Source: Candidatus Thermoflexus tengchongensis (GTDB lineage: Bacteria > Chloroflexota > Anaerolineae > Thermoflexales > Thermoflexaceae). From it: DNA of 48,693 nucleotides. Each line of letters begins with the position of its first letter. Within the stretch, counting starts at the first letter, position 1. Where the stretch lies: assembly GCA_016842085.1 (NCBI GenBank), contig JAEVEX010000009.1, forward strand, positions 1 to 48,693, given 5' to 3'. Under the pieces are notes generated by a model. That model was not told the origin of the DNA. It made no database searches and saw only the letters and a program-made list of their open reading frames with translations. The position numbers and the translations under genes are program-made. Of this stretch, positions 4,509 through 48,640 are shown piece after piece.

Positions 4509-5792
4509 ATGGCGGTGGAACAGATCCGGCAGGAGACCCTGAATCCCTTTGAGATTGTTCAGAAGCAGCTGGACGAGGTCGCCCAGGTGATCGGCCTGGA
4601 GCCTCACGTTCATGAGATGCTCCGCTGGCCCAAGCTGGAGATCCAGGTCACCTTCCCCGTCCGCATGGACGATGGGTCGATCCGGATCTTCCGGGGGTTC
4701 CGGGTGCAATATAACGATGCCCGGGGCCCGGCCAAGGGTGGTATCCGTTACCATCCCCAGGAAACCATTGATACAGTGCGGGCCCTGGCGGCGTGGATGA
4801 CATGGAAGACCGCGGTGATGGATCTGCCCCTGGGCGGCGGGAAGGGCGGCGTGGTGTGCGATCCCAAGCATCTCTCTCAGGGGGAGCTGGAGCGGATCAG
4901 CCGGGCCTACATTCGGGCCATCGCCCCCTTCATCGGGCCGGAGCGGGATGTGCCCGCGCCGGATGTTTACACGAACCCTCAGATCATGGCCTAGATGATG
5001 GATGAATACAGCACCATCGTCGGTTACAACGCCCCCGGGGTGATCACGGGCAAGCCGCTGCCCCTGGGCGGAAGCCGGGGGCGGGAAGACGCCACCGCCC
5101 GGGGTGGGATCTATGCCACCCGGGAGGCGGCGAAGGTGCTTGGCCTGGATTTGAACGGGGCTACAGCTGCCATCCAGGGCTATGGGAACGCCGGCCAGCA
5201 TGCCCATCGGCTGGGGGTGGAGCTCCTGGGCCTGAAGGTGGTGGCCGTCAGCGACTCCCAGGGTGGGGTTTACAACCCCAGGGGGCTGGACTTCGCCGCG
5301 CTGTCGGCCTGGAAGCGGGAGCACGGCACCGTCGTGGGCTTCCCGGGGGCCGATACCCTCACCAATGAGGAGCTGCTGGAGCTTCCGGTGACGGTCCTGT
5401 TCCCGGCCGCTCTGGAGAACCAGATCACCGCGGAGAATGCCCCGCGCATCCGGGCCCGTATCGTGGCGGAGCTGGCGAACGGCCCCACCACCCCGGAGGC
5501 CGATCACATCCTCCACGAGAACGGGGTTTACGTCATCCCGGACTTCCTGTGCAACGCGGGCGGGGTCACGGTCTCCTACTTCGAAATGGTGCAGAACGCC
5601 TACGGCTACTACTGGAGCGAGGCGGAGGTCCATCAGCGGCTGGATGAGAAGATGACGGCAGCTTTCCACGCGGTGCATGAGACCGCGCGGCGCTACCGGG
5701 TGCATAACCGGCTGGGTGCTTACATCGTCGCGATCGAGAGGACCATCTCCCCAACCTCAGGCTCTCATCTGCATCCGCTGGAAGGAGGAACT
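4509..5792 (+). pseudogene. First glutamate dehydrogenase, interrupted by an in-frame TAG and lacking its own stop
   Basis: The first 161 codons give a normal Glu/Leu/Phe/Val dehydrogenase N-terminal domain, with [29 protein letters not shown] and [17 protein letters not shown] then stands at 4992-4994 where the neighbouring paralogue has TGG (Trp). Two ATG codons follow, and the same frame continues through the dinucleotide-binding domain ([46 protein letters not shown]). The usual last dozen residues and stop codon after GAYIVAIER are missing, and the frame runs without a stop into the next gene. All catalytic lysines and the aspartate are intact, so the damage looks recent. It could be a sequencing error, a true pseudogene, or a gene read by suppression or re-initiation at 4995. 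Confidence 0.75.
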
Positions 5793-7139
5793 ATGGCGGT
5801 GGAACGCTCGGTGGAGGTTTCCTACAGTGCTTTCTACTCTCCCTCGCCGGAAGCTGTTCGGAAGGGCCTCCAGGCCTGGCATGCGGCGCTGGCTCAGTTC
5901 GATAAGGCCGCCCGGATCCTGGAGGCCTCGGGCCATCCCCTCAAGAAGGGGCTCATTGAATTCCTGCGCCGCCCCAAGCGGGAGCTGATCGTCAACTTCC
6001 CCGTCCAGATGGACGATGGGTCGATTCAGATGTTCACCGGCTACCGGGTGCACCACAATGCCGTCCGCGGCCCAACAAAGGGCGGCATCCGCTACCATCC
6101 GGATGTCACGCTGGAGGAGGTGCGGGCGCTGGCGATGTGGATGACCTGGAAATGCGCGCTGGTGAACATCCCCTACGGAGGGGCCAAGGGCGGCGTGGCG
6201 GTGGATCCCATGAAGCTCTCCCCCCGGGAGCTGGAGCGCCTCACCCGCCGCTATGCCACCGAGATCAGCCTGCTGATGCATCCGGGTGGGGATGTGCCCG
6301 CCCCGGATGTGGGGACCAATCCCCAGATCATGGCCTGGATCATGGACACGTATTCCATGCACACCGGCTTCGCTCAGCCTGCCGTGGTCACCGGGAAGCC
6401 CGTGGAAATCGGCGGGACGGTTGGGCGGGTGGAGGCCACCGGGCGCGGGGTGATGATGGTGGTCGCTGAAGCCCTGAAAGTAAACCGGATCCCCATCGAG
6501 CAGGCCACCATCGCTATCCAGGGCTTCGGGAACGTGGGCTCTCATGCAGCCCTTACCGCCTACCAGATGGGAGCCAAAGTGGTGGCGGTGAGCGATCTCC
6601 ACGGAGGGATTTATAACCCGAAGGGCCTGAATATCCCCCGTCTGGTTGAGCATGTCGGGCAGCATCGAACGGTCATCGGCTTCCCCGAGGCCGAGCCCAT
6701 CACCAACGCCGAGCTCCTGACCCTGAAGGTGGATGTGCTCATCCCCGCCGCCCTGGAGAACCAGATCACCGCGGAGAACGCCCCCCTCATCCAGGCCCGC
6801 ATCCTGGCGGAAGGGGCCAACGGCCCCACCACCCCGGAGGCCGATGAGATCCTGCTGGAGAAAGGCGTGTTCATAGTGCCGGACATCCTGTGCAATGCCG
6901 GCGGGGTGATTGCCTCTTATTTCGAGTGGGTGCAGGATTTGCAGTCGTTCTTCTGGACGGAGGAGGAGATCAACCAGCGGATGGAGCGGATCCTGCAGCG
7001 GGCTTTTTACGAGGTGCTGGCGAAGGAAGAAGAGCTGCGCCGCTATGGCCTGAAGCCGGGGGACTATCGCACGGCCGCCCAGGCGCTGGCGATCTGGCGC
7101 GTCGCCCAGGCGACCCTGATTCGGGGCATTTACCCGTAG
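5793..7139 (+). CDS. gdhA: NAD(P)-dependent glutamate dehydrogenase
   Basis: This enzyme interconverts glutamate with 2-oxoglutarate and ammonia. It has 448 residues, slightly longer than usual because of an N-terminal extension. The substrate domain shows [29 protein letters not shown] and [14 protein letters not shown], which carry the conserved lysines and catalytic aspartate. The Rossmann domain shows [14 protein letters not shown] and the C-terminal [16 protein letters not shown]. The ATG at 5793 is preceded by GGAAGGAGG, an excellent site. The broken paralogue upstream reads into it in the same frame, so a 714-residue fusion starting at 4995 is also possible. Paired GDH genes occur in Thermus, where one partner is regulatory. 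Confidence 0.93.
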
Positions 7140-9038: not shown

Positions 9039-9119
9039 ATGATCCGGAAGGGATGGCCGGTCGTGGAATGTGGTAAACTGGCCTCCACAATGCGGAGCAT
9101 CGATGGGAGGGAGGAAACG

Positions 9120-10166
9120 ATGACCCCAGCTCTTCAACGCGTGGCCCTCATCGGGTTTGGAGCGGTGGGGCGTGCCCTCGCCCGGCTGCTCCTGAGAAAG
9201 CATGAGGAGATCCGTCAGCGATATGATCTCGACATCCGGGTCACCGGGATCATCACCGCTCGCCGGGGAGCGGCCTGGGATCCGGAGGGACTGGACCTGG
9301 CCGACGCCCTGGAGGCAGTGGAGCGGGGCGGGGATCTGAGCACCCTCAGCCGAAGCCCGGCCCCGCGGGAGACCATAGCCTTCATTGAGCGCTGTCCGGC
9401 GGATGTGGTGGTGGAGATCACTGTCCTGGATCCCCGCACGGGGCAGCCGGCCACCGACCACGTGCGGGCGGCCCTGCGCTCGGGTCGGCATGTGGTGACC
9501 GCCAACAAGGGCCCTCTGGCCTTCGCCTACCGGGAGCTGCGGGAGCTTGCCCGCTCCCTCGGCCGCGCGTTTCTCTTCGAGTCCACGGTCATGGACGGCG
9601 CCCCGCTGTTCAGTCTGGTTCGCGAGGGGTTGCCGGCCACCCGCATCCTGGGGTTCCGGGCCATCCTCAACAGCACCACCAATTTCATCCTCACCCGGAT
9701 GGAGGAGGGGATCCCCTTTGAGGAGGCTGTTCGGCAGGCCCAGGCCATCGGTATCGCCGAGGCGGATCCATCGAACGATATCGATGGCTGGGATGCGGCG
9801 GTCAAGACCTGTGTGCTGGCCAATGTGTGGATGGAGGCCGATCTGCGGCCCGATCAGGTGGAACGGACCGGCATCCGGGGGATCCGGCCGGAGGATCTGG
9901 TGGCGGCGCAACAGGAGGGGCGGCGGATCAAGCTGGTGTGCACGGCGGAGCGGGGCGCGGATGGGGCGGTGCAGGCCCGGGTGGCCCCGGAAGCCGTCCC
10001 GCTGGAGGATCTCCTGGCCCATGTGCGCGGGACCTCGTCGGTGATCACCCTGCGCACGGATACCTTAAAACAGCTCACTCTGATTGAGCATGAGCCCGAG
10101 CCTGCCCAGACGGCCTTCGGGATCCTGGCCGATCTCATCAACGTCGCGCGGGGCCATTGGGGGTAG
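9120..10166 (+). CDS. hom: Homoserine dehydrogenase
   Basis: This enzyme reduces aspartate semialdehyde to homoserine with NAD(P)H in threonine and methionine synthesis. The ATG at 9120 follows GGGAGGGAGG. The product has 348 residues and lacks the C-terminal ACT domain present in feedback-regulated forms. The nucleotide-binding loop is VALIGFGAVGRALA. The catalytic region shows TANKGPLAF, NSTTNFILTRM and EADPSNDIDGWDAAVK, which carry the conserved lysines and acidic residues. No other gene of the pathway is adjacent. The short form suggests control by expression rather than by threonine, but that is an inference. Confidence 0.94.
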   Translation: MTPALQRVALIGFGAVGRALARLLLRKHEEIRQRYDLDIRVTGIITARRGAAWDPEGLDLADALEAVERGGDLSTLSRSPAPRETIAFIERCPADVVVEITVLDPRTGQPATDHVRAALRSGRHVVTANKGPLAFAYRELRELARSLGRAFLFESTVMDGAPLFSLVREGLPATRILGFRAILNSTTNFILTRMEEGIPFEEAVRQAQAIGIAEADPSNDIDGWDAAVKTCVLANVWMEADLRPDQVERTGIRGIRPEDLVAAQQEGRRIKLVCTAERGADGAVQARVAPEAVPLEDLLAHVRGTSSVITLRTDTLKQLTLIEHEPEPAQTAFGILADLINVARGHWG

Positions 10167-10170
10167 GGAA

Positions 10171-10402
10171 CGCCGATTGGAAATCGGCCTCGCGAGGCGC
10201 TTTGCGCCGGGCGTGGGCTTGTGCGCCGATTGAAATCGGCCTGGTTAGGCGCTTCGCGCCGGATGCCGGCCTTCGCCGGCATGAAAACCGCCTTTCGGCC
10301 GGCGCAGGCCGGCCATCGGCCGAAGGCCTCTTGGGGTCGAATTCATTCGACGCTCAGGCCGGCCATTGGCCAAAGGCCTTTGAGGTCGAATTCATTCGAC
10401 GC
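10171..10402. repeat. Palindromic repeat island A (two heads, two tails)
   Basis: The gene-free stretch 10167-10565 begins with modular inverted repeats. Head hairpins CCGAT..ATCGG start near 10172 and 10224. Each is followed by GGCGC/GCGCC arms. A longer hairpin ATGCCGGC-CTTC-GCCGGCAT lies at about 10263-10282. GGCCGGCGCAGGCCGGCC-type palindromes follow, and two copies of GTCGAATTCATTCGAC lie at 10336-10351 and 10385-10400. The same modules recur in the same order at 29161-29579. No protein is coded here. A TATAAT at 10434-10439, just past the island, may be the -10 box of the regulator gene that follows. Confidence 0.85.
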
Positions 10403-10565: not shown

Positions 10566-13500
10566 ATGGAAGCAAACAGAGTCCTGGCGGTTTTTCAGAT
10601 CCGTCCGCATCTGATCCGGCGAGTACAGGAGGGGCTGCATCAGGGAACGGTATGGGTCTCCGCGCCGCCCGGCTATGGCAAGAGCATGCTCCTGCGGTCC
10701 CTGGAGCTCCACCTCCCCGGCAGTCGATATCTCCCGTTGACCCCCTCCGCGATCGATCCCGGGAACCTGCAGGAGGTCCTGGCGTCGCTGGAGCCGGCCC
10801 GTCTTCGTCTCCTCGATGATGTCCATCTCCTTGCGGATGGCCCGGAGGCCCTGCGCGATCTCCGGGAGGCCATCGCCCGGGCCCCGGATCGCTGGGTGAT
10901 CGCCGGACGCTGGATCCCGGAGCCTCTCTGCGAGGGCCCCTTCCTGCAGACCTGGCTCACGGAAGCGGAGCTGGCCTTTTCGATCCCTGAGGTCGCCATG
11001 GCCCTCGGGGTGGATCGGGAGACGGCTGCCCGGATCCATGCCCGCACCCGGGGCTGGCCGATCGTGATCGCGCTCCTCGCCCAGCCCGATGCGAACCGTC
11101 CTCTCCCGGAGCGCTGGCCGGAAGCCCAGGATCGGCTGTTTGAGGAGCTGGCGCGTTCCCTGCTTCGAGCCCTTCCGGAAGCGCTCCGGATATTTCTCTT
11201 CCGCACCGCGGTTCCCCTGATGTTCAACCTCAGCCTGGCCGCAGCGCTCTTCGAGGACCATCCGGAGCTCCAGGCCCGGCTTCCGAACCTGCTCGCGGAA
11301 GCTCAGCGGCGCCGGTTGTTTCTGGAGCCCGCCAGCCCCCCGGATCGCTGGCGTTACCACGAGCTGTTCCGGGAGTTCCTGTTGCGCCACGGGCCGGAGC
11401 CCCTTCCTCCGCTGTTCGCTCGAGCGATGGCCTGGTTCGAAGGGCAGGGAGATCTGGAGATGGCCATCGAACATGCGCTGGCGGGGAGATTAGAGGCGGA
11501 GGCGGTCCGGTTGCTGCGGGCCCTGCCGGATGCCTTCATCTGGGATCGGGGGCGGCGGCGGACGTTCCAGCGCTGGGTGATGAGCCTCCGGGAACCTGCG
11601 CGCCGGGAGGCTCCGGATCTGATGCTCCGCCTGGGCAAGGAGCTGCATCGGGCCGGCCACTGGGAAGAAGGCCGGGCCGTCCTCCGGGAAGTGCTGACGT
11701 GGGCAGAGCAGCAGGAGGATGCTGCGCTGCGGGATCAGGCCTCTCTGATGCTGGCCTCGGTGCTCTACATTGAAGGCCGATTTGGGGAAAGCCTGGCCTG
11801 GAGCATGCAGAGGCTTCAGCAGATCCATTCCCCCAGGCTCCGCATGCGGTTGCTGAAAACGGCCGCCGACGCCTGCGCCGGCCTGGGACGATTGAGCGAG
11901 GCCCGCCGCCTCTATCGAGAGGCGATGGCCCTGGCGGAGGAGCTGGGAGATCCGCACTATCCGGTCTTCCTCCGCCATAACCGGGCGGTGGGCGTGGAGA
12001 TCCCTGCCGGGCGCTTCAGGGAGGCGCGAGGTTTGCTTGCCGCCAACGCCCCTTACTACGAGGGACGGCCTGCGCAACGGATCACCCACCTCATCGGGTG
12101 GGCCATGCTCGCGATCGAAAGGGGAGCCTGGGCGGAGCTGGAACAGATCCTCGGGGAGATCGAGGCCCTGGCCCGGGAGGTGGAAGAAGGCCAGGCCAGC
12201 AATGATTTCTGGTTCTGGTGGTGCCGGGCGATGGGCGCCATCGGCCAGGGACGATGGGAGGAGGCCGCCTCCGCCTTCACCCATGCGGAGGACCTGGTCC
12301 GCGGGCATCCCGAGCGGGAGGGCTTTCTGGCCCAGGCGCAGGCCTGGCAGGCCCGCCGACAGGGACGCCCGGAGGACGCGATCCGGATCGCAGAGCAGGC
12401 CCTCCCGCGCCTCGATGGCGCTCCCCTCGCCCGGGCCCTGGTCGCCCTGGAACGGGACCTGGCGGCTCAGGCGATGGGACGGGTCGAGAACCATCCCGCC
12501 GTGGAGACCCTCATCGCCGCGCGGGCGGGAGCGTCCTTCCTCCGGCTTCGGGCGTTGCGGGCCCTTCAGGCCCACGCGGTCGGGGATCCCCGCTGGCGCC
12601 GCCACCTCCAGGCGGCCCTCCGCCACCTCAGTCGGGAGGATCTGCTGTCGGCCCGCGATCCGGAGCTGGGAACGGCTTTCTGGCTCCTGTGTCTGAAGGA
12701 AGGAATCGGCGAGGAGGAGGCCATCCGCGCCCTGGGCGGCCTGCGGCCCTTTCCAGCCCTCCGGGAGCTGTTGCGGGATCCCCGGGAACAGGTTCGCCGT
12801 GCGGCGGCGCGGGCCCTGGCGGCCACCCGGGAGGAGGCGGCGATGCTGCTCCTGCAGGACGCTCTGCGCCGGGAGCGCCACCCGGCAATCCGCAAAGCCC
12901 TGGAAGGCGCCCTTCAGTTCCTCGAATCCCTGCCGCCGCCGCCCCTCGAGATCCGGCTGCTCGGCCGCTTTGAGGTCCGGCGGGGTGGAGAACTTCTCCC
13001 GGAGTCCATCTGGCCCCGACCGGCCGTGGCCCGGCTTCTGCAATACTTCGCCCTCCACCGGCGCCAGTGGCTCCCCCGGGAGCGTATCCTGGAGGACCTG
13101 TGGCCCGAGCGGGATCCAGAAGATGCCGGGGAGATCTTCCGGCGGTTGTTCTCATGGCTCCATCAGGTCCTGGAGCCCGCCATGCGCCCCAAAGGGCCTT
13201 TCCGCTATTTTGACGTCAAGGGCGATACCCTGCGCTTCGATCCCCACGACGTGGTAGAGGTGGATGTGGAGCGGATCGAGGCGGAGATCCGGCGGGCGCT
13301 GGTCACCCGCCCGATGCCTCAGGAGACATGGGCAGCTCTGGCGAAGCGACTGGAGGAGTGGCCGCTGCTGCTGCCCGATCGGCCCTACGAAGCCTGGCTG
13401 ATTCCCTATCAGGAACGCTGGCGGGCCCTGCGGACGGAAGCCGCCCAGGCGCTGGCGGAGGATGCCCTGGTCCTCCAGGAGCTGGACGCCGCCATCCGCT

Positions 13501-13706
13501 GGGCGGAGCGCGCCATCGAGGATGCGCCCTGGCTGGAGGAAGGCTATCAGGTTTTGATGCGGGCGTGGGCCCGCCAGGGGCATCGATCACGCGCCCTGTG
13601 GATTTACGAGCAGGCTGTGGAGGCCCTTCGCCGGGAGCTCCAGGCCGCTCCCTCCCCGCTCACCCACTGGCTCGCCGAGCGCCTCCGCCGGGGTGAGCCG
13701 ATCTGA
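10566..13706 (+). CDS. Giant ATPase-TPR-SARP/BTAD transcriptional regulator
   Basis: The 1046-residue product has the layout of MalT/SARP-type regulators. An STAND-like ATPase comes first, with Walker A SAPPGYGKSML (about 32-42) and Walker B LRLLDDVHLL. Helical TPR-like repeats fill roughly residues 290-640 and HEAT-like repeats about 715-790 (DPREQVRRAAARALAATREEA). From about residue 792 there is an OmpR-like winged helix (IRLLGRFEVRRGG) followed by a BTAD domain (VEVDVERIEAEI and its TPR hairpins). The DNA-binding end is thus C-terminal. Such proteins switch on genes when a ligand or partner releases the ATPase. The ATG at 10566 has GGAGGGG upstream. The target genes may be the adjacent membrane-protein genes, which is inference from position only. 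Confidence 0.88.
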   Translation: MEANRVLAVFQIRPHLIRRVQEGLHQGTVWVSAPPGYGKSMLLRSLELHLPGSRYLPLTPSAIDPGNLQEVLASLEPARLRLLDDVHLLADGPEALRDLREAIARAPDRWVIAGRWIPEPLCEGPFLQTWLTEAELAFSIPEVAMALGVDRETAARIHARTRGWPIVIALLAQPDANRPLPERWPEAQDRLFEELARSLLRALPEALRIFLFRTAVPLMFNLSLAAALFEDHPELQARLPNLLAEAQRRRLFLEPASPPDRWRYHELFREFLLRHGPEPLPPLFARAMAWFEGQGDLEMAIEHALAGRLEAEAVRLLRALPDAFIWDRGRRRTFQRWVMSLREPARREAPDLMLRLGKELHRAGHWEEGRAVLREVLTWAEQQEDAALRDQASLMLASVLYIEGRFGESLAWSMQRLQQIHSPRLRMRLLKTAADACAGLGRLSEARRLYREAMALAEELGDPHYPVFLRHNRAVGVEIPAGRFREARGLLAANAPYYEGRPAQRITHLIGWAMLAIERGAWAELEQILGEIEALAREVEEGQASNDFWFWWCRAMGAIGQGRWEEAASAFTHAEDLVRGHPEREGFLAQAQAWQARRQGRPEDAIRIAEQALPRLDGAPLARALVALERDLAAQAMGRVENHPAVETLIAARAGASFLRLRALRALQAHAVGDPRWRRHLQAALRHLSREDLLSARDPELGTAFWLLCLKEGIGEEEAIRALGGLRPFPALRELLRDPREQVRRAAARALAATREEAAMLLLQDALRRERHPAIRKALEGALQFLESLPPPPLEIRLLGRFEVRRGGELLPESIWPRPAVARLLQYFALHRRQWLPRERILEDLWPERDPEDAGEIFRRLFSWLHQVLEPAMRPKGPFRYFDVKGDTLRFDPHDVVEVDVERIEAEIRRALVTRPMPQETWAALAKRLEEWPLLLPDRPYEAWLIPYQERWRALRTEAAQALAEDALVLQELDAAIRWAERAIEDAPWLEEGYQVLMRAWARQGHRSRALWIYEQAVEALRRELQAAPSPLTHWLAERLRRGEPI

Positions 13707-14700: not shown

Positions 14701-15675
14701 ATGGCTGCATCCGGGATCGCGGCGCTGGGGGTCGCGATGGTCGGCGCGCTGATCCCCACCGCCGTCTTCGCGGGCGTGATGTGGTGGTTCGATCGCTATG
14801 AAAAAGAGCCGTTGACCCTCATGGGCGTGGCGGCCCTCTGGGGCAGCCTTTCGGCGATGGCCATCGTCCTGCTGCGGCCGCTGATCCTCGCGGGAGGGGC
14901 CGCGCTCTTCGATCCGCTGGCCACAGGGACCTGGGGGAACGCGGTTCTGCTGCCGGCGCTGGAGGAGATCGTGAAGGGGCTGTTTCTTCTGGGGTTCTTC
15001 CTGCTGTATGCCCGGGAGATCGACAGCCTCTACGATGGCTTCCTTTACGGCGCGCTGACGGGCTTCGCCTTCGCCGCCGCGGACACGATCCTGGGGGCCC
15101 CAGCCCGAGGCTGGGGTCTGGGCGAGGCCCTGGGGCGGACCGCCGTGCTGGGCCTGGCGCAGGCGTTCTTCACCGCCTGGATCGGCCTGGGGCTCACCGC
15201 AGCGCGGTTGAGCCGGGGACCCTCCCGGTGGGCGTGGCCGGTCCTGGGCCTTCTGGCGGCGATCGGTTTCCACAGCCTGCGAGAGCTGGCCATCATCCCC
15301 ACCCTCTGGAACCCGGGGCTGGCCGGGCTGCGGACGCTGGTGAACACCCTGGGGGTTCTGCTGTTGATCGGCATTGTGGTTTACGGGATGGGCCGGGAGC
15401 GGGCCTGGATCGCCCGGTATCTGGCGGAGGAAGTCTCCGCCGGCGTCCTCCCGGCGGCCCTGTATGAGACCCTCCGATCGCCGACCGGCTGGCTCGCCTA
15501 TCGCTGGGGTCCGCTCCTCCGGGGCGACACGACGACCTGGCGGCGGCGCGGGCAGCAGCTCCAGGTCGCCGCCGAGCTGGCCTTCCGCAAGCACCAGCGG
15601 GCCATCCTCGGCGAGGCCCGCTGGGAGAGCGAGATCCAGCGCCTGCGGGAGGTCCTGCGCCGCCTGACCCCATAG
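14701..15675 (+). CDS. PrsW-family membrane protein with degenerate active-site motifs
   Basis: The 324-residue polytopic protein is clearly a paralogue of the next gene. Both share WWFDRxEKEPL, REIDSLYDGFLYG and a near-identical cytosolic tail (LAFRKHQR, LGEARWE, EIQRLRE). PrsW proteins are intramembrane metalloproteases that cleave anti-sigma factors. This copy keeps the EExxK motif (E88, E89, K92) and H191. The conserved EN pair is D128-T129 and the first conserved histidine is Q154. The fourth motif reads FHSLREL rather than FHALHNT. It is therefore probably inactive, or it works as a pseudoprotease that binds substrate or the active partner. AAGGAGG precedes the start. Confidence 0.85.
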   Translation: MAASGIAALGVAMVGALIPTAVFAGVMWWFDRYEKEPLTLMGVAALWGSLSAMAIVLLRPLILAGGAALFDPLATGTWGNAVLLPALEEIVKGLFLLGFFLLYAREIDSLYDGFLYGALTGFAFAAADTILGAPARGWGLGEALGRTAVLGLAQAFFTAWIGLGLTAARLSRGPSRWAWPVLGLLAAIGFHSLRELAIIPTLWNPGLAGLRTLVNTLGVLLLIGIVVYGMGRERAWIARYLAEEVSAGVLPAALYETLRSPTGWLAYRWGPLLRGDTTTWRRRGQQLQVAAELAFRKHQRAILGEARWESEIQRLREVLRRLTP

Positions 15676-15712
15676 GGATTCGGGGCTCACCTTTTTCGTT
15701 CGGAGACTGGCC

Positions 15713-16744
15713 ATGGAGAACCAGAGCGGATTCCCGCTCATTGCCCTCTGTCTGGCACCGTTGCTGGCCTTCGGGCCGATGGTGCTCTATGCCGCCTTCG
15801 CCTGGTGGTTCGATCGCTTCGAGAAGGAGCCCCTCTGGCTGATCGGGGCGGCTTTCCTGTGGGGCAGCGTCCCCACCGTATTGCTCGCCCTGTGCGCCCA
15901 GATCCCGACCTTCGGCGTGCTGGGCGCCGTCCTCGGAAAGGGCGCGGGGAGCGCGATGGGCAGCATCCTTGTCGCTCCCTTCACCGAGGAGCTCTTCAAG
16001 GGCCTTTTCGTCTTCCTGCTTTTCCTCCTGTATCGCCGGGAGATCGACAGTCTCTATGACGGCTTCCTCTACGGCTCCCTGGTGGGCTTCGGCTTCGCCG
16101 CCACGGAGAACGTCCTCTACTTCCTGAGCGCCGCCTCCGCGGGCGGGCTCTCCGGGATGTTCGGCAATTTCATCGCCCGGGCGATCGTCTTCGGCCTGAA
16201 CCACGCGGCCTACACGGCCCTCACCGGCCTGGGGTTCGCCGCCGCCCGCCTGTCGCGCTCGACGCTGACCCGCCTCGCCGCTCCGGTCCTGGGCCTGGGC
16301 GGGGCCATGGCCTTCCACGCCCTGCACAACACCACCGCCACGCTGACCGAAGCCACGGGATCCCTGCTGTTCTGCCTGCTGTGGATCCCCTTCGACTGGC
16401 TGGGGGCGCTGCTGATCTTCGCCATCGCCCTCTATGGGCTGACGCGGGAGCGGCGCTGGCTGCAGCAGTATCTTCGGGAGGAAGTGAGCGCCGGGGTGCT
16501 CCCGGAGGCCCTCTACCGGCAGTGTGCCTCGATCTTCGGGCGGATCGGCGGACGGTGGGGGGCGTTGCTGCGGGGCGATATGGCGACCTTCTGGCGGCTC
16601 GGGCGGATCTACGCGCTGGCGACGGAGCTGGCTTTCCGCAAGCACCAGCGGATCGTCCTCGGGGAAGCCCGCTGGGAGCCGGAGATCCAGCGCCTGCGGG
16701 AGGCCCTGCGCCGGGAGATCGGAATGGCCGCGGAAGCCCGTTGA
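15713..16744 (+). CDS. PrsW-family intramembrane metalloprotease
   Basis: This 343-residue copy keeps all visible family motifs: EExxK as E92-E93-K96, GFGFAATEN with E132-N133, H164 in NHAAYTA, and H202 with N206 in FHALHN. About eight to nine membrane helices precede a soluble tail of about 90 residues. PrsW of Bacillus subtilis cleaves the anti-sigma factor RsiW; the substrate here is unknown, and no sigma/anti-sigma pair is in the window. It starts 37 bases after the degenerate copy. The pair most likely arose by tandem duplication and may form a heterodimer. Confidence 0.9.
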   Translation: MENQSGFPLIALCLAPLLAFGPMVLYAAFAWWFDRFEKEPLWLIGAAFLWGSVPTVLLALCAQIPTFGVLGAVLGKGAGSAMGSILVAPFTEELFKGLFVFLLFLLYRREIDSLYDGFLYGSLVGFGFAATENVLYFLSAASAGGLSGMFGNFIARAIVFGLNHAAYTALTGLGFAAARLSRSTLTRLAAPVLGLGGAMAFHALHNTTATLTEATGSLLFCLLWIPFDWLGALLIFAIALYGLTRERRWLQQYLREEVSAGVLPEALYRQCASIFGRIGGRWGALLRGDMATFWRLGRIYALATELAFRKHQRIVLGEARWEPEIQRLREALRREIGMAAEAR

Positions 16745-27208: not shown

Positions 27209-29014
27209 TCAGGCTTCGCGGCCCATCCGGAGGACGGCCAGGAAGGCCTCCTGGGGGACCTCCACACGGCCGATCATCTTGAGGCGCTTCTTCCCTTCCT
27301 TCTGCTTCTCCAGGAGTTTGCGCTTGCGGGTGACATCGCCGCCATAGCATTTGGCCAGCACATCCTTCCGCATGGCTTTGATGGTCGCCCGGGCGATGAT
27401 CCGCCCGCCCACCGCGGCCTGGATGGCGACGTCGAAGAGCTGGCGGGGGATCACTTCCTTCAGCTTTTCCACCAGCGCATGACCTTTGGGATACGCCTGC
27501 TCCCGATGCACGATCAGCGCCAAGGCGTCCACCGGCTGGCCGTGCACCAGGATGTCCAGCTTCACCAGATCCCCCGCCCGATAGCCGATGAAGGTGTAAT
27601 CCATCGAGGCATAGCCCCGGGTGCGGCTCTTGAGGGCATCGTAGAAATCGATGATCAGCTCGGCCAGCGGCACCTCCGCCTCGATCATCACCCGCCGGGG
27701 ATCCAGATAGGTCATGTTCTGATACACCCCCCGCCGCGAGGTGATGAGGTCCATCACCGGCCCGATGGAATCGGCCGGGGTGATGATCGTGACCTTCATC
27801 CACGGCTCCCGGATCTCCTCGATTCGCGAGGGATCCGGCAGATCCGAAGGACGGGTGATGGTTTTCACCGTCCCATCCCGCAGGGCCACCTCATACTCCA
27901 CGCTGGGGGCCGTGGCCACGATGTCCAGCCCGTATTCCCGTTCCAGGCGCTCCTGGACGATCTCCATATGGAACATCCCCAGGAAGCCGCAGCGAAAGCC
28001 GAATCCCAGGGCCTGGGAGGTCTCCGGCTGGAAGACCAGGGCGGCGTCGTTGAGTTGCAGCTTCTCCAGGGCCTCCCGCAGCAGCTCGTAATCCTCGCCT
28101 TCCGAGGGATAGAAGCTGGCAAAGACCATGGGCTTGGGCGGGCGGAACCCGGGAAGCGGCTCCGGGGCCGGGCGATCGGCCGTGGTCAGGGTGTCCCCCA
28201 CCCGGCACTCCCGCACGGATTTCAAGCCCGTGGCCACGTAGCCCACCTCGCCGGCCTCCAGGCGGCCCGTTGGGGTGAAGTCCGGGGTGAAGACCCCGAT
28301 CTCCACCGGCTCGCTGGTCACCCCGGTGGACATCACCATGATCTTCCGCCCCATGGCGAGGGTCCCGTTGACCACGCGAACATAGGCGATGACGCCCTTG
28401 TAGGGATCGTAGTGGCTGTCGAAGATCAGGGCCTGGAGAGGGGCCTCCGGATCGCCGCGGGGCGGTGGGATGCGCTGCACTACCGCCTCCAGCACCTCCT
28501 CCACCCCGATCCCCAGCTTGGCGGAGATCCGCAGGACCTCGGAGTCGGGGACGCCCAGGAGCTCGGCGATCTCCCCGGCCACCTCGTCGGGCCGCGCGGC
28601 GGGCAGGTCGATCTTGTTGACCACCGGGATGATGACGAGATCGTGCTCCAGGGCCAGATACAGGTTGGCCAGGGTCTGGGCCTCGATCCCCTGAGTGGCG
28701 TCGACCAGCAAAACGGCCCCCTCGCAGGCGGCCATCGCCCGGCCCACCTCGTAGGAGAAATCCACGTGGCCCGGCGTGTCGATCAGGTTCAGCACATAGG
28801 TCCGGCCATCCCGCGCCGTATACCGCATCCGGACGGCCGAAGCCTTGATGGTGACCCCGCGCTCCCGTTCCAGATCCATGGAATCCAGCACCAGCTCCAC
28901 TCCGTTCCGCGGCTGGATGGTGCCGGTGCGCTCCAGGAGCCGGTCCGCCAGGGTGGTCTTGCCGTGATCCACGTGGGCGATGATGCAGAAATTCCGGATA
29001 TGCTCCAGCCCCAT
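27209..29014 (-). CDS. lepA: Elongation factor 4 (LepA), ribosomal back-translocase
   Basis: LepA is a ribosome-bound GTPase that remodels stalled translation complexes. The ATG at 29014 gives 601 residues, the standard length. The P-loop is [12 protein letters not shown] (residues 11-22). The switch [10 protein letters not shown] and the NKID motif follow. LepA-specific C-terminal signatures are [11 protein letters not shown]-like and the [14 protein letters not shown]-like basic tail (read here as [10 protein letters not shown] and [20 protein letters not shown]). The frame extends to a GTG at 29053, but the conserved N-terminus begins at 29014. It has no operon partner: the upstream side is a gene-free repeat island and the downstream side is the secreted-protein gene. 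Confidence 0.97.
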
Positions 29015-29160
29015 GGCTTCTTTGCTCCAGCCCGGTGGAAAACCGTCATTCACAGATGGAGGAGTCTTTCAGGAGCCCACATCCTTGGAAAGATTGCCCG
29101 GACCCGAAGCCCGCATCGCTGTGCATCATACCCGGGGCGGGAAAAAGGTGTCAAATGGTC

Positions 29161-29579
29161 CCGCCGATGGAAATCGGCCTCCCGAGGCGCTGCGCGCCTT
29201 CCGTCGGCCGATTGCACCGATGGAAATCGGCCTCGGGAGGCGCTTCCGCGTTAGGTGCCGACCTTCGCCGGCACGAAAACTCCTCTTCCGGCCCATCGCG
29301 CCGATGGAAATCGGCCTTTCAAGGCCCCTTCGCGCCCCGCGTTGGCCTTCGCCAACGCGAAAGGCTCTTTTGGCCGGCGCAGGCCGGCCATCGGCCCAAG
29401 GCCTCTCCAGGTCGAATTCATTCGACACCCCACCGCGCCCGGCCACCGGCCTTCCACGCCGATGGAAATCGGCCTCCCGAGGCGCTGCGCGCCTTCCGTC
29501 GGCCTCCGCCGACGGGAAAACCCCCGGCCGGCGCAGGCCGGCCATCGGCCCAAGGCCCATGAGGTCGAATTCATTCGGC
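29161..29579. repeat. Palindromic repeat island B (four heads, two tails)
   Basis: The 698-base gene-free stretch 29015-29712 contains four head units CGCCGATGGAAATCGGCCT (starts near 29162, 29215, 29300, 29458; one begins ACCGAT). Each is a CCGAT-GGAA-ATCGG hairpin with a GNRA-type loop. They are followed by GGCGC/GCGCC arms. Hairpins with different but paired arms follow: CGTTGGC-CTTC-GCCAACG at 29339-29356, and CGTCGGC-CTCC-GCCGACG near 29497-29514. GGCCGGCGCAGGCCGGCC palindromes then lead to GTCGAATTCATTCGAC at 29411-29426 and a one-base variant at 29563-29578. The order equals island A. No gene is seen in the flanks 29015-29160. Confidence 0.88.
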
Positions 29580-29712
29580 CCACGCCTCCATTCCACATGC
29601 GAACCGGTCCCGGGGTAGGATAAAGAAACCGTGCTGCCGGCATCCGGGGAGAATTCCGCCCTCCCGTCGCATGCCCGAGATCCGGCCGGACATCTCTCCG
29701 AGGAGGCTTGCC

Positions 29713-32163
29713 ATGCGCCGACGCCTGCTGCTTGGGATCATCCTGGGATTGGGAATCGGGCTCCTGCTCCTTCTCGCGGGAGGCGCCTTCGCCTTCTACC
29801 GGGCTTCCCGTCAGCCGTTCCCTCCGAGCCACGGAACCCTCCGCCTCCCCGGCCTCCAGGCCCCCGTCACGGTGATCCGGGATCGCTGGGGCGTGCCCCA
29901 TATCTACGCCTCGAATCTTCACGACCTCTTCATGGCCCAGGGCTTCGTTCACGCTCAGGATCGCTTCTGGCAGATGGAGTTCTGGCGCCACATCGGAACC
30001 GGCCGTCTCTCCGAAATGCTGGGGAAGACCACCCTCAACCAGGATCGCTTCATCCGCACGCTGGGATGGCATCGGGCCGCGCGACAGGATCTGGAAGCCC
30101 TGGGGCCCGAGGAGCGGGCCATCCTGGAAGCCTATGCGGCCGGGGTGAACGCTTACCTGGAACAGCATCGCGATCGCCTGCCCCTCGAGTTCACCCTCTT
30201 CCGCCTCTTCGGACGACGATGGGAAATCGAGCCATGGCAACCGCTCCATACCGTGGCCTGGGCCAAGGTGATGGCATGGGATCTGGGTGGGAACTGGGAT
30301 GACGAGCTCCTCAACGCGCGGATCGTCCAGAAGATCGGCCCGGAGCGCCTGCCGGAGATTGTCCTCCCTTATCCCGCCGACCGGCCGATCATCGTGCCGA
30401 CCGCTGTCGTCGAAACCCCGCTCCCCGAGGAAACGGCCCGCCTCTGGCTGGACCTCGGGCATGCGCTGCGACGGATCACGCTGGGCGACGCCCCGGACCT
30501 GGGGTCCAACAACTGGGTGGTGGCGGGATCGCGCTCGGTCACCGGGAAGCCGATCCTGGCCAACGATCCCCACCTCAGCATCCAGATGCCCAGCATCTGG
30601 TATGAAGTGGCCCTGCACTGCGAGCCCGTCACGCCCGAATGCCCCCTTCAGGTCGCCGGCGCCTCGTTCCCCGGCGTCCCGGGGGTGGTGATCGGCCACA
30701 ACGACCGCATCGCCTGGGGCGTGACCAACCTGGGGCCGGATGTGCAGGACCTTTATATGGAGCGGGTCAACCCGCAGAACCCGCTGGAGGTGGAATTCCA
30801 GGGGAAGTGGGAGCCTGTGCAGGTGATCACCGAGGAAATCCGCATCGCCGGGCAGGCGGAGCCCCTGCTCCTCCCGGTGCGGATCACCCGCCACGGGCCG
30901 GTGATCAACGATGTGGTGGAAGCCCTCACCCGCACCCAGACCCTCTACGCCTTCCGCTGGACCGCCCTGGAGCCTTCGCGGATCGTGCGGGCCCTCCTGC
31001 GGTTGAACCGCGCCCGGGACTGGGAGGAATTCCACGAGGCCCTGGCGGATTGGGATGTGCCCGGCCAGAACTTCGTCTATGCCGATGTGGACGGCCACAT
31101 CGGCTACCAGGCCACCGGCCGCGTTCCCATCCGGGCGAAGGGGAACGGCCTGCTCCCGGTCCCGGGCTGGAGCGGGGAGTATGAGTGGGTGGGGTATGTT
31201 CCGTATGAGGAAATGCCCCGGCGGCTGGATCCGCCGGAGGGATTCATCGTCACCGCGAACAACGCCGTGGTGGATCCTTCCTATCCCCACTTCCTGGCCG
31301 CCGTGTGGGATTACGGAGACCGGGCCCAGCGGATCGTGGACCTCCTCCGGATGAAGGATCGCCTCTCCATGGAGGACATGGCCGCCATCCAGAACGATAC
31401 CTTCTCCCTGGCAGCGCGGGACATCGTGCCATATGTCCTCCAGATTTCCTTTACGGATCCCCTGGCCCGTCAGGCTCAGGAGATCCTGCGGGCCTGGGAT
31501 TTCCGGGCCACGCCGGATCAGGCCGGGCCTGCGATCTTCGAGACCTTCCTGAAACATCTGCTCCACGAAGCATGGGTCGATGAGCTGGGCGAGGAGATCC
31601 TCCAGGATCTGCTGACCGGCGGCAGCCACAACCGCTACTGGGCCCGCTGGGCGCTGGCCCAGCCGGAGCTTTCATGGTGGGATGACCTCCGCACGCCTCA
31701 GCGGGAGACCCGGGATGAGATCGTGCGGCGGGCCTTCGAGCAGGCGGTGGCCGAGCTGCGCGCGCGCCTGGGTTCCGATCCCCGCGCGTGGACCTGGGGG
31801 AAGATCCACACGGCCACATTCACCCACGGCACCCTGGGGCAGTCCGGGATCCGGCCGATCGAGGCGATCTTCAACCGCGGGCCCTATCCAGCCCCTGGGA
31901 CCAGCGCAGCCGTGAACAACATTGGTTTCAACGTCCAGAAGGGGTTCGCCGTGCGCAGCCTGCCCTCCCTGCGCTTCATCGCCTCGACGGCCAACTGGTC
32001 CGACAGCCGCTTCATCCACACCACCGGCCAGTCCGGGCTTCCTTATCACCCGCATTACGACGATTTCATCCCGATGTGGCTGAAAGGGGAATATCACCCC
32101 ATGCTCTGGCCCCGGGAGGAAGTGGAGCGGAACGCCGAAGGGATCCTGAGGTTGCAACCGTAG
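29713..32163 (+). CDS. Penicillin acylase family (peptidase S45) secreted amidase
   Basis: The 816-residue precursor starts at 29713 behind GAGGAGG and has a signal anchor (LLLGIILGLGIGLLLLLAGGA). It is an N-terminal nucleophile hydrolase that cuts itself into alpha and beta chains. The new N-terminal Ser is S265 in LGSNNWVVAGSRSVTGKP, preceded by Gly. Family landmarks VIRDRWGVPHIYA, GFVHAQDRFWQMEFWR and the beta-chain motif NDPHL are present. Typical substrates are N-acyl amides: penicillins, acyl-homoserine lactones, or acylated peptides. The true substrate is unknown. The stop codon lies in a decayed copy of an intergenic palindrome that starts at 32161. Confidence 0.92.
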   Translation: MRRRLLLGIILGLGIGLLLLLAGGAFAFYRASRQPFPPSHGTLRLPGLQAPVTVIRDRWGVPHIYASNLHDLFMAQGFVHAQDRFWQMEFWRHIGTGRLSEMLGKTTLNQDRFIRTLGWHRAARQDLEALGPEERAILEAYAAGVNAYLEQHRDRLPLEFTLFRLFGRRWEIEPWQPLHTVAWAKVMAWDLGGNWDDELLNARIVQKIGPERLPEIVLPYPADRPIIVPTAVVETPLPEETARLWLDLGHALRRITLGDAPDLGSNNWVVAGSRSVTGKPILANDPHLSIQMPSIWYEVALHCEPVTPECPLQVAGASFPGVPGVVIGHNDRIAWGVTNLGPDVQDLYMERVNPQNPLEVEFQGKWEPVQVITEEIRIAGQAEPLLLPVRITRHGPVINDVVEALTRTQTLYAFRWTALEPSRIVRALLRLNRARDWEEFHEALADWDVPGQNFVYADVDGHIGYQATGRVPIRAKGNGLLPVPGWSGEYEWVGYVPYEEMPRRLDPPEGFIVTANNAVVDPSYPHFLAAVWDYGDRAQRIVDLLRMKDRLSMEDMAAIQNDTFSLAARDIVPYVLQISFTDPLARQAQEILRAWDFRATPDQAGPAIFETFLKHLLHEAWVDELGEEILQDLLTGGSHNRYWARWALAQPELSWWDDLRTPQRETRDEIVRRAFEQAVAELRARLGSDPRAWTWGKIHTATFTHGTLGQSGIRPIEAIFNRGPYPAPGTSAAVNNIGFNVQKGFAVRSLPSLRFIASTANWSDSRFIHTTGQSGLPYHPHYDDFIPMWLKGEYHPMLWPREEVERNAEGILRLQP

Positions 32164-32216
32164 GACAACTGCTCGCAGCCATCCTGTTCTCCATAACCTG
32201 CGGGGCAGGAGCCACC

Positions 32217-33217: not shown

Positions 33218-33320
33218 CTACAGCCGCACCGGGCCTTCCAGTGGGGCCACCACCCCACCTGGAGGCTCATTCAGAGTATCAGCGTGGACGTAGGGCAACT
33301 GCTTGCAGTTGCCCTACGTC
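33218..33320 (+). repeat. Dispersed intergenic repeat, copy 1
   Basis: The element starts with CTACAGCCGCACC and contains GGGGCCACCACCCCACC. It ends in a perfect 16-bp inverted repeat with TT at the centre (33287-33320, core GGGCAACTGCTTGCAGTT). A second copy in opposite orientation lies at 38759-38836, and the core alone recurs at 20253-20272. A G/C-rich hairpin follows at about 33370-33410 (CCGCCGCGCAGCGGCG). No gene is seen between 33207 and 33504. Confidence 0.85.
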
Positions 33321-38758: not shown

Positions 38759-38836
38759 CGTAGGGCAACTGCAAGCAGTTGCCCTGCACCTCCAGGTGGG
38801 ATGGTGGCCCCCCTTGAAGGCCGGGTGCGGCTGTAG
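38759..38836 (-). repeat. Dispersed intergenic repeat, copy 2 (inverted orientation)
   Basis: Read on the minus strand this is CTACAGCCGCACC, then GGGGCCACCATCCCACC, then the GGGCAACTGCTTGCAGTT palindrome, as in copy 1 (33218-33320) but about 23 bases shorter between the two parts. It lies inside the operon, between the sdhC-like and second anchor genes. The surrounding gap (38668-38913) holds no gene. Confidence 0.85.
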
Positions 38837-48567: not shown

Positions 48568-48640
48568 GCCGAGATAGCTCAGTTGGTAGAGCACCCGGCT
48601 GAAAACCGGGGGGTCGGCGGTTCGATTCCGCCTCTCGGCA
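48568..48640 (+). tRNA. tRNA-Phe (anticodon GAA)
   Basis: The 73-nt gene folds as a standard cloverleaf. The acceptor arm is GCCGAGA with TCTCGGC plus A at 48640. The anticodon stem is CCCGG with CCGGG around CTGAAAA, which puts GAA at 48601-48603. The T arm contains GTTCGATTC. CCA is not encoded. Confidence 0.97.

Follow-up and report, generated by a model that had tools for sequence, protein, structure and literature searches.

The palindromic islands in the window, which is the whole 48,693-nucleotide stretch of Candidatus Thermoflexus tengchongensis DNA that we analysed (contig JAEVEX010000009.1), are probably arrays of non-autonomous REP-like elements processed in trans by a TnpA transposase of the IS200/IS605 type. 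We observed the structure of the repeat unit, its copy numbers, the position of tnpA inside arrays, the class of the enzyme and the presence or absence of islands at orthologous sites. Recognition of the units by the enzyme, their cleavage and their mobility in trans are inferences from these observations.

Results

The repeat unit is a row of six short hairpins

Island A occupies positions 10171-10402 on the + strand. An earlier note on this DNA had described it as a modular repeat with a head hairpin, GGCGC arms, a variable hairpin, a palindrome and a tail in fixed order, and had reported the same order 19 kb away. All of these modules are present in that order, and the units recovered at the second site, island B, contain the same modules and paired stems. 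The observation is thus confirmed, with the refinement that 10171-10402 comprises three parts and is not a single unit. A truncated unit (10171-10221, +), which retains the head hairpin, the GGCGC arms and a 5′ remnant of the variable hairpin, is followed by a complete unit running head to tail (10222-10355, +) and by a duplicated tail module (10352-10402, +) with a second GTCGAATTCATTCGAC tail hairpin at 10385-10400.

Units are about 133 bases long (range 127-138 bp) and consist of six short local hairpins in a row. In the complete unit of island A, all on the + strand, these are the head hairpin GCCGATTGAAATCGGC (10225-10240), a GGCGC-TTC-GCGCC hairpin (10248-10260), the variable hairpin ATGCCGGC-CTTC-GCCGGCAT (10263-10282), a GGYCGGC/GCCGRCC hairpin whose copy in the window reads GGCCGGC-GCAG-GCCGGCC (10297-10314), a GGCC-GAA-GGCC hairpin (10318-10328) and the tail hairpin GTCGAATTCATTCGAC (10336-10351). 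All six are supported by covariation. The strand in the sense of tnpA is the opposite of the + strand for this unit.

Island B (29160-29583, +) consists of a degenerate unit (29160-29276, +) followed by two complete units (29297-29430 and 29455-29583, both +). Its variable stems, which the earlier note had listed as differing from those of island A, are GCGTTGGC/GCCAACGC and CCGTCGGC/GCCGACGG, and each has its matching arm. With R1, a covariance model described below, the complete unit of island A scored 150.4 bits and the three units of island B scored 50.4, 131.7 and 129.2 bits; the remainder of the window outside these four units gave nothing above 7.9 bits. Allowing up to three mismatches, the tail matched eight times in the window (four places, both strands), compared to 0.34 matches expected. 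At the Rfam gathering score, no family matched the islands and the only match in the window was a tRNA gene at 48568-48640; the best of the weak matches at the island had E values of 0.43 and 0.6. Elsewhere in the window, 4613-6935 and 14701-16744 contain diverged tandem duplications in or between neighbouring ORFs (71-77% identity over 130-290 nt).

Paired substitutions maintain the hairpins within and beyond the genus

A pattern search of islands in the window's genome (G000) and three congeners (G004, G008 and G003) yielded 145 units, of which 141 were distinct. Alignment A1 was made from the 133 units of length 127-138 by removing near-duplicates, leaving 86. In the six local hairpins of A1, 98.4% of cells paired, compared to 96.4% in shuffles and only 20.8-41.8% in slid controls. 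Changes on both sides were found in eight pairs, a number reached by 1 of 500 shuffles, and in 92 cells, which none of the 500 reached. The third pair of the GGYCGGC/GCCGRCC hairpin is C-G in 42 of the 86 units and T-A in 44.

We built the covariance model R1 from A1 and used 35 loci (177 kb, among them RAYT loci, empty sites and loci of other bacteria rich in REPs) as a control, in which the highest score was 35.2 bits. The 34 non-genus units that we took forward scored 86-118 bits. These units, from four genomes of other genera (G486, G466, G052 and G020), were aligned with eight genus units using MAFFT without structure to give A3 (42 units). Pairing in A3 extended to 95.8% of cells, compared to 86.5% in shuffles and 18-46% in slid controls; both sides had changed in 16 of 36 pairs (shuffles, 10.0) and in 140 cells (shuffles, 40.2), and none of 500 shuffles reached any of these three values. 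Further pair types in A3 were not unusual (86 of 500 shuffles). The stem of the variable hairpin carries both-side changes in five of its eight pairs in A1 and in seven of eight in A3. Covariation support for the six hairpins is stronger in A3 than within the genus, with the caveats that R1 itself served to find the non-genus units, that several come from one genome and that kinship inflates the counts. These data bear out the proposal in the earlier note that arms change together with their partners, and they support its interpretation that structure, and not sequence, is kept.

In the minimum-energy DNA fold, modules of the window unit that lie far apart pair with one another. This long-range fold paired 89.7% of cells, compared to 89.5% in shuffles, and 144 of 500 shuffles reached its value. 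Since long-range pairing gained nothing over shuffles, we retained the six local hairpins.

Units are numerous and arranged head to tail

The window's genome (3.89 Mb, 100 contigs) contains 82 exact copies of the tail 16-mer, in tandem islands of uniform orientation; a reversed-pattern control gave none. A lack of further copies would have refuted the earlier note. The exact tail was found in 6 of the 60 genomes searched, including G000. Four of eight congeners have it (G003, 26 copies; G004, 26; G008, 46; G006, 6), the other four have none, and one copy lies outside the genus in G046, a member of the same class. With at most one mismatch, the head 16-mer occurs 58 times in G000, 41 in G003, 139 in G004, 53 in G008, 10 in G006 and 3 in G002, and was absent from G001, G005 and G007. 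Tail positions on contig C149 of G008 match the record BEHY01000149 (Candidatus Thermoflexus japonica). The tail 16-mer also occurs in 12 stretches of viral contigs.

Units follow one another head to tail, and tails with and against the majority orientation of their island number 96:1 in G000 and 101:1 in G004. Adjacent units are more alike (identity 0.907) than units of different islands (0.819 in G000, 0.857 in G004), and identity between G000 and G004 units is 0.792. Islands lie between called genes; one tail in G000 and three in G004 overlap a gene end. At 1e-10, R1 matched 31 of 120 sampled genomes of the class, five in the genus and 26 outside it. We had considered that the repeats of G002 were unamplified and confined to its tnpA; this idea was dropped, as R1 gives 41 matches in that genome (a count over both strands, with no more than 150 candidates scored in any genome).

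An IS200-type tnpA lies inside arrays of four genomes

A search of nine genus genomes for the Y1_Tnp family matched nine places in five genomes. A tnpA gene located inside a unit array accounts for the sole match in G002, for the sole match in G008 and, of the four matches in G004, for one. Read in the sense of tnpA, the layout in these three genomes is tail...head - tnpA - tail...head. In G466, which belongs to another family, a TnpA homologue with 58% identity is encoded in the head/tail slot of an R1-type array, the units of which differ in sequence and form the same six hairpins. The gene is single-copy in all four genomes, and G004 contains one tnpA relative at 1e-20. The G004 and G466 proteins scored 58.3 and 68.5 bits with the NCBIfam IS200/IS605 model (cut-off 55), the array TnpAs scored 25.4 and 28 bits with the RAYT model (cut-off 80), and PDB relatives of the array TnpA include ISHp608 TnpA.

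Relatives of this TnpA at E ≤ 1e-20 were present in 32 of 400 sampled Chloroflexota genomes, at one or two copies each, and in only two plasmid records. We examined 32 tnpA loci, 29 from the Chloroflexota sample and three from congeners. By a simple pattern, the proteins contain HUH in 26 of the 32 and Y---Q--HH in 29. Repeated words occurred in the 600-nt flanks at 25 loci and were near zero in shuffles; this count holds at a threshold of 40, after subtraction of 20 spacer-derived bases from the joint count. The remaining seven loci had no repeat in these flanks. Words common to the left and right flanks were mainly direct at 10 loci and mainly inverted at nine, and 13 loci had hardly any or none in common. 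Repeats around most of the distant homologues matched R1 weakly, and four loci outside the genus (L324, L313, L307 and L306) exceeded the control maximum of 35.2 bits. At L306 (G218), a tnpA sharing 63% identity with the G004 gene lies between two long arrays built of different units, one with units of ~62/80 bp and the other with units of ~120 bp.

We detected no array-type tnpA at E ≤ 1e-20 in G000, whose only two Y1_Tnp matches are RAYT genes, and no Y1_Tnp match at all in G003. Both are draft assemblies, and arrays break assemblies. The gene was not found in the six other genus genomes, with the reservation that the 1e-20 search sampled part of the genus.

The RAYT genes of the genome have their own repeats

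The earlier note had suggested a RAYT-type transposase as partner. The two RAYT genes of G000 (83.4 and 95.2 bits; cut-off 80) each have different repeats of their own, and we rejected RAYT as the partner of the six-hairpin units since both loci are flanked by these other repeats. The gene on contig C77 (L189) is flanked by GTAGGGCAACTGC...GCAGTTGCCCTAC repeats, with which it forms a conventional GTAG REP/RAYT pair. The same repeat is the second one in the window, with copies at 33289-33315, 38759-38785 and 32159-32185. The other RAYT gene (L190, 1330-2190, on contig C97 of G000) has flanking repeats of ~70 bp with GGGAGTGCGGCGCC and lies ~4.5 kb from a six-hairpin island on the same contig.

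No known REP family had come to mind in the earlier note, and the whole unit does not meet the definition of a GTAG-type REP. Its tail 16-mer GTCGAATTCATTCGAC is identical to a GTAG-type REP hairpin widespread in Gammaproteobacteria and other bacteria (L030-L145), so that this module, at least, is similar to a known REP. The feet differ: GT[AG]GG adjoins 134 of 173 external copies of GTCGAATTCATTCGAC, and GT[AG]G lies within 2 nt of only 1 of the 82 exact tails in G000.

Islands differ between orthologous sites and mark a breakpoint

The homoserine dehydrogenase gene (hom, 9039-10166, +) ends with its stop codon 4 nt before island A, and a 1046-aa gene with BTAD and TPR domains (10566-13706, +) lies beyond the island. 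G000, G003 and G008 have an island behind hom; G004, G005, G006, G002, G001 and G007 have none. In G005, hom and a gene that we call X converge across a short gap; in G008 the two flank the tnpA-bearing array, and G003 carries hom, island, Uma2, island and X in succession. Since hom and X/Uma2 are on separate contigs in G000, both with islands, island A marks a breakpoint. The adjacency of hom and the 1046-aa gene is likewise unique to G000, their homologues being apart in congeners that have both, which also indicates that island A is a site of rearrangement. In G008 and G000 the TGA stop codon of gene X is inside a tail hairpin, and the protein ends in RRKVE, compared to RRKEFSP in G005.

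Island B lies between divergent genes, with a lepA-type gene (27209-29053, −) on its head side and a penicillin-amidase family gene (29671-32163, +) on its tail side. It is present in G000, G003, G004 and G008, with differing numbers of units, and absent from G005, G002 and G007. The two flanks of this site are on different contigs in G001, where the left one is not followed by a unit.

Using a simple codon-usage gene finder, we classed 26 of the 31 islands in G000 (three at edges and two with distant genes were omitted) and 17 of the 23 in G004 (six omitted). In G000 the 3′ end of the neighbouring gene faced the island on the tail side in 21 of 26 cases and on the head side in nine (discordant islands 14:2, p=0.004); the corresponding numbers in G004 were 13 and 4 of 17 (10:1, p=0.012). 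The two tests are not independent, since the islands are partly orthologous. Tail ends lay within 30 nt of the stop codon for 13 of the 21 tail-side genes in G000 and 9 of the 13 in G004. Island A is an exception, as hom abuts its head side. The polarity was not reproduced in four other genomes, outside the genus (3:6 in 13 classed islands), where gene calls were rough, the sample was small and seven further islands fell at locus edges.

Directly 5′ of the tail hairpin in the sense of tnpA, the foot GNGY is conserved. Among internal copies, 134 of 143 have G at position −4 and 125 of 143 have G at −2; among the outermost copies the counts are 39 of 54 and 43 of 54. No clear motif emerged among island flanks that could serve as an external target site, and the exact cleavage site cannot be derived from these data. 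A lagging-strand bias, which would be expected, was not visible in G004, where by hand count, with dnaA taken as the origin, ~16 of 32 islands are co-directional with replication; the GC skew of this genome is weak.

Discussion

If TnpA acts on these arrays in trans, the unit would fold as single-stranded DNA into its six hairpins and the enzyme would bind hairpins, its contacts probably being the hairpins at the two ends of the unit, the head hairpin and the tail hairpin with its conserved 5′ foot GNGY. TnpA would then cut beside the bound hairpins and insert the unit at another site, in many cases immediately downstream of a stop codon, to judge from the two Thermoflexus genomes examined. 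Arrays may grow head to tail by insertion beside existing ends together with local recombination, and recombination between arrays could rearrange the chromosome. Loss of tnpA would leave arrays behind, as has probably happened in the window's genome. Like the growth mechanism, this loss is inferred, as is any function for the host.

Several observations are also compatible with passive repeats, spread and homogenised by recombination, gene conversion and slippage, in which tnpA is a chance passenger. Such repeats would be tandem, adjacent units would be most alike, arrays would be found at rearrangement breakpoints, and genomes such as G000 and G003 could carry many units without a detected tnpA. 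Chance does not readily place tnpA in the same head/tail slot in G002, G004, G008 and G466 despite differing repeat sequences, nor its homologues in other lineages among repeats as well (25 of 32), and related units are dispersed over many sites. We consider this explanation unlikely, although it remains a credible one. Paired changes by themselves could also reflect mutational correction within palindromes, by template switching, and not selection on structure. Perfect inverted repeats are known to undergo correction of one arm against the other, and the units do exchange sequence within islands. Arm correction leaves the conserved loops, order and spacing unexplained, however, and the six hairpins are kept across families; we therefore view it as a rather doubtful account of the covariation.

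A functional 3′-UTR structure, such as a terminator or stabiliser of mRNA ends maintained by selection, with a merely historical link to tnpA, would account for the tail-side polarity in G000 and G004 and for the tails close to stop codons, and covariation suits RNA as well as DNA. We have no transcript data. The polarity was not reproduced in the small sample from four other genomes, close relatives lack an island behind the same gene, no Rfam family matched and island B separates divergent genes, so that we regard this possibility as quite improbable. Least plausible is a lengthened GTAG-type REP family with a RAYT partner. The exact match of the tail 16-mer to the REP hairpin of other bacteria and the presence of two RAYT genes in G000 would be expected; the near absence of the GT[AG]G foot (1 of 82 copies), the other repeats around both RAYT genes and array enzymes far below the RAYT cut-off leave very little room for it.

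Processing of REP-like arrays by TnpA, the reading that we prefer, provides a candidate substrate for subclass 1.2-like proteins in Chloroflexota, and the lineages and paired changes described here suffice to guide tests of binding and cleavage. It also points to more than one origin of REP-like repeats: HUH-Y1 transposases would have given rise to them on at least two occasions, one on the RAYT side and the other on the IS200 side. Given their location at chromosome breakpoints and downstream of stop codons, the arrays could influence how genes are ordered and where mRNAs end in thermophilic Chloroflexota. By inference, draft assemblies of these genomes are also prone to break at such arrays. 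A literature search, confined to titles and abstracts and leaving most subscription papers uncovered, returned no report linking an IS200-type TnpA to a compound palindromic repeat in Chloroflexota.

Among known systems, enterobacterial BIMEs resemble the islands in being intergenic mosaics of several palindromic modules. BIMEs alternate in orientation, whereas tails within our islands are uniform. GTAG-type REPs are likewise high-copy and mostly extragenic, a criterion that the 82 exact tails of G000 meet. The other criteria are not met: the foot in the sense of tnpA is GNGY and not GT[AG]G, the unit measures 127-138 bp and comprises six covarying hairpins, not a single palindrome of 20-40 bp, and the array TnpA falls below the RAYT cut-off and scores as an IS200 TnpA. 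With IS200/IS605 elements the units have in common a Y1 HUH transposase and, as we infer, hairpin ends processed by single-strand chemistry. They do not form autonomous, near-identical multi-copy elements. G002, G004 and G008 have one tnpA each, units of the same type flank it on both sides in direct orientation, and tandem arrays occur elsewhere. PATEs are non-autonomous derivatives of IS200/IS605 insertion sequences.

Two groups of TnpAY1 proteins also bear comparison. In the available part of the published classification, class 3 comprises Y1 genes flanked by several atypical high-copy structures, ~600 of them in Solibacter usitatus, with a Y----Q protein class and a CnGA foot, in Planctomycetes, Acidobacteria and Proteobacteria (Quentin et al., 2018, PMC6006769). 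Our arrays also combine a Y1 gene with atypical high-copy structures; protein class and foot differ, and a six-hairpin tandem unit is not described in that part. Subclass 1.2, as far as the same part extends, contains IS200-like TnpA proteins with the signature Y---Q--HH, at low copy and without IS properties, mostly in Cyanobacteria and Bacteroidetes and generally without IS200-type terminal structures, and the section on it mentions no REP partner (Quentin et al., 2018, PMC6006769). The array enzyme matches on signature (29 of 32 loci) and on low copy number (one or two per matching genome, 32 of 400 Chloroflexota genomes); its membership is suggested by signature only, as we did not place it by clustering or a tree. 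Compared to subclass 1.2 as portrayed in that section, it occurs in Chloroflexota and is associated with a compound repeat present in many copies.

The unit works most like the REP of a REPtron. As in REP/RAYT (TnpAREP) REPtrons, high-copy extragenic palindromes surround a single-copy HUH-Y1 gene, and the repeat sequences are lineage-specific and often near gene ends; REP/RAYT REPtrons form inverted dimers, whereas six-hairpin units form head-to-tail arrays. Since the unit fails the definitions of both GTAG REPs and insertion sequences, and the enzyme carries the subclass 1.2 signature, we propose a REPtron variant. It may even be, and we hold this to be nearly as likely as not, that the arrays represent a second, independently evolved kind of REPtron, in which a domesticated TnpA of subclass 1.2, a group otherwise without a partner, acts on a compound, single-stranded six-hairpin substrate and enzyme and substrate have co-diversified across families within a single class, with the architecture kept through paired substitutions.
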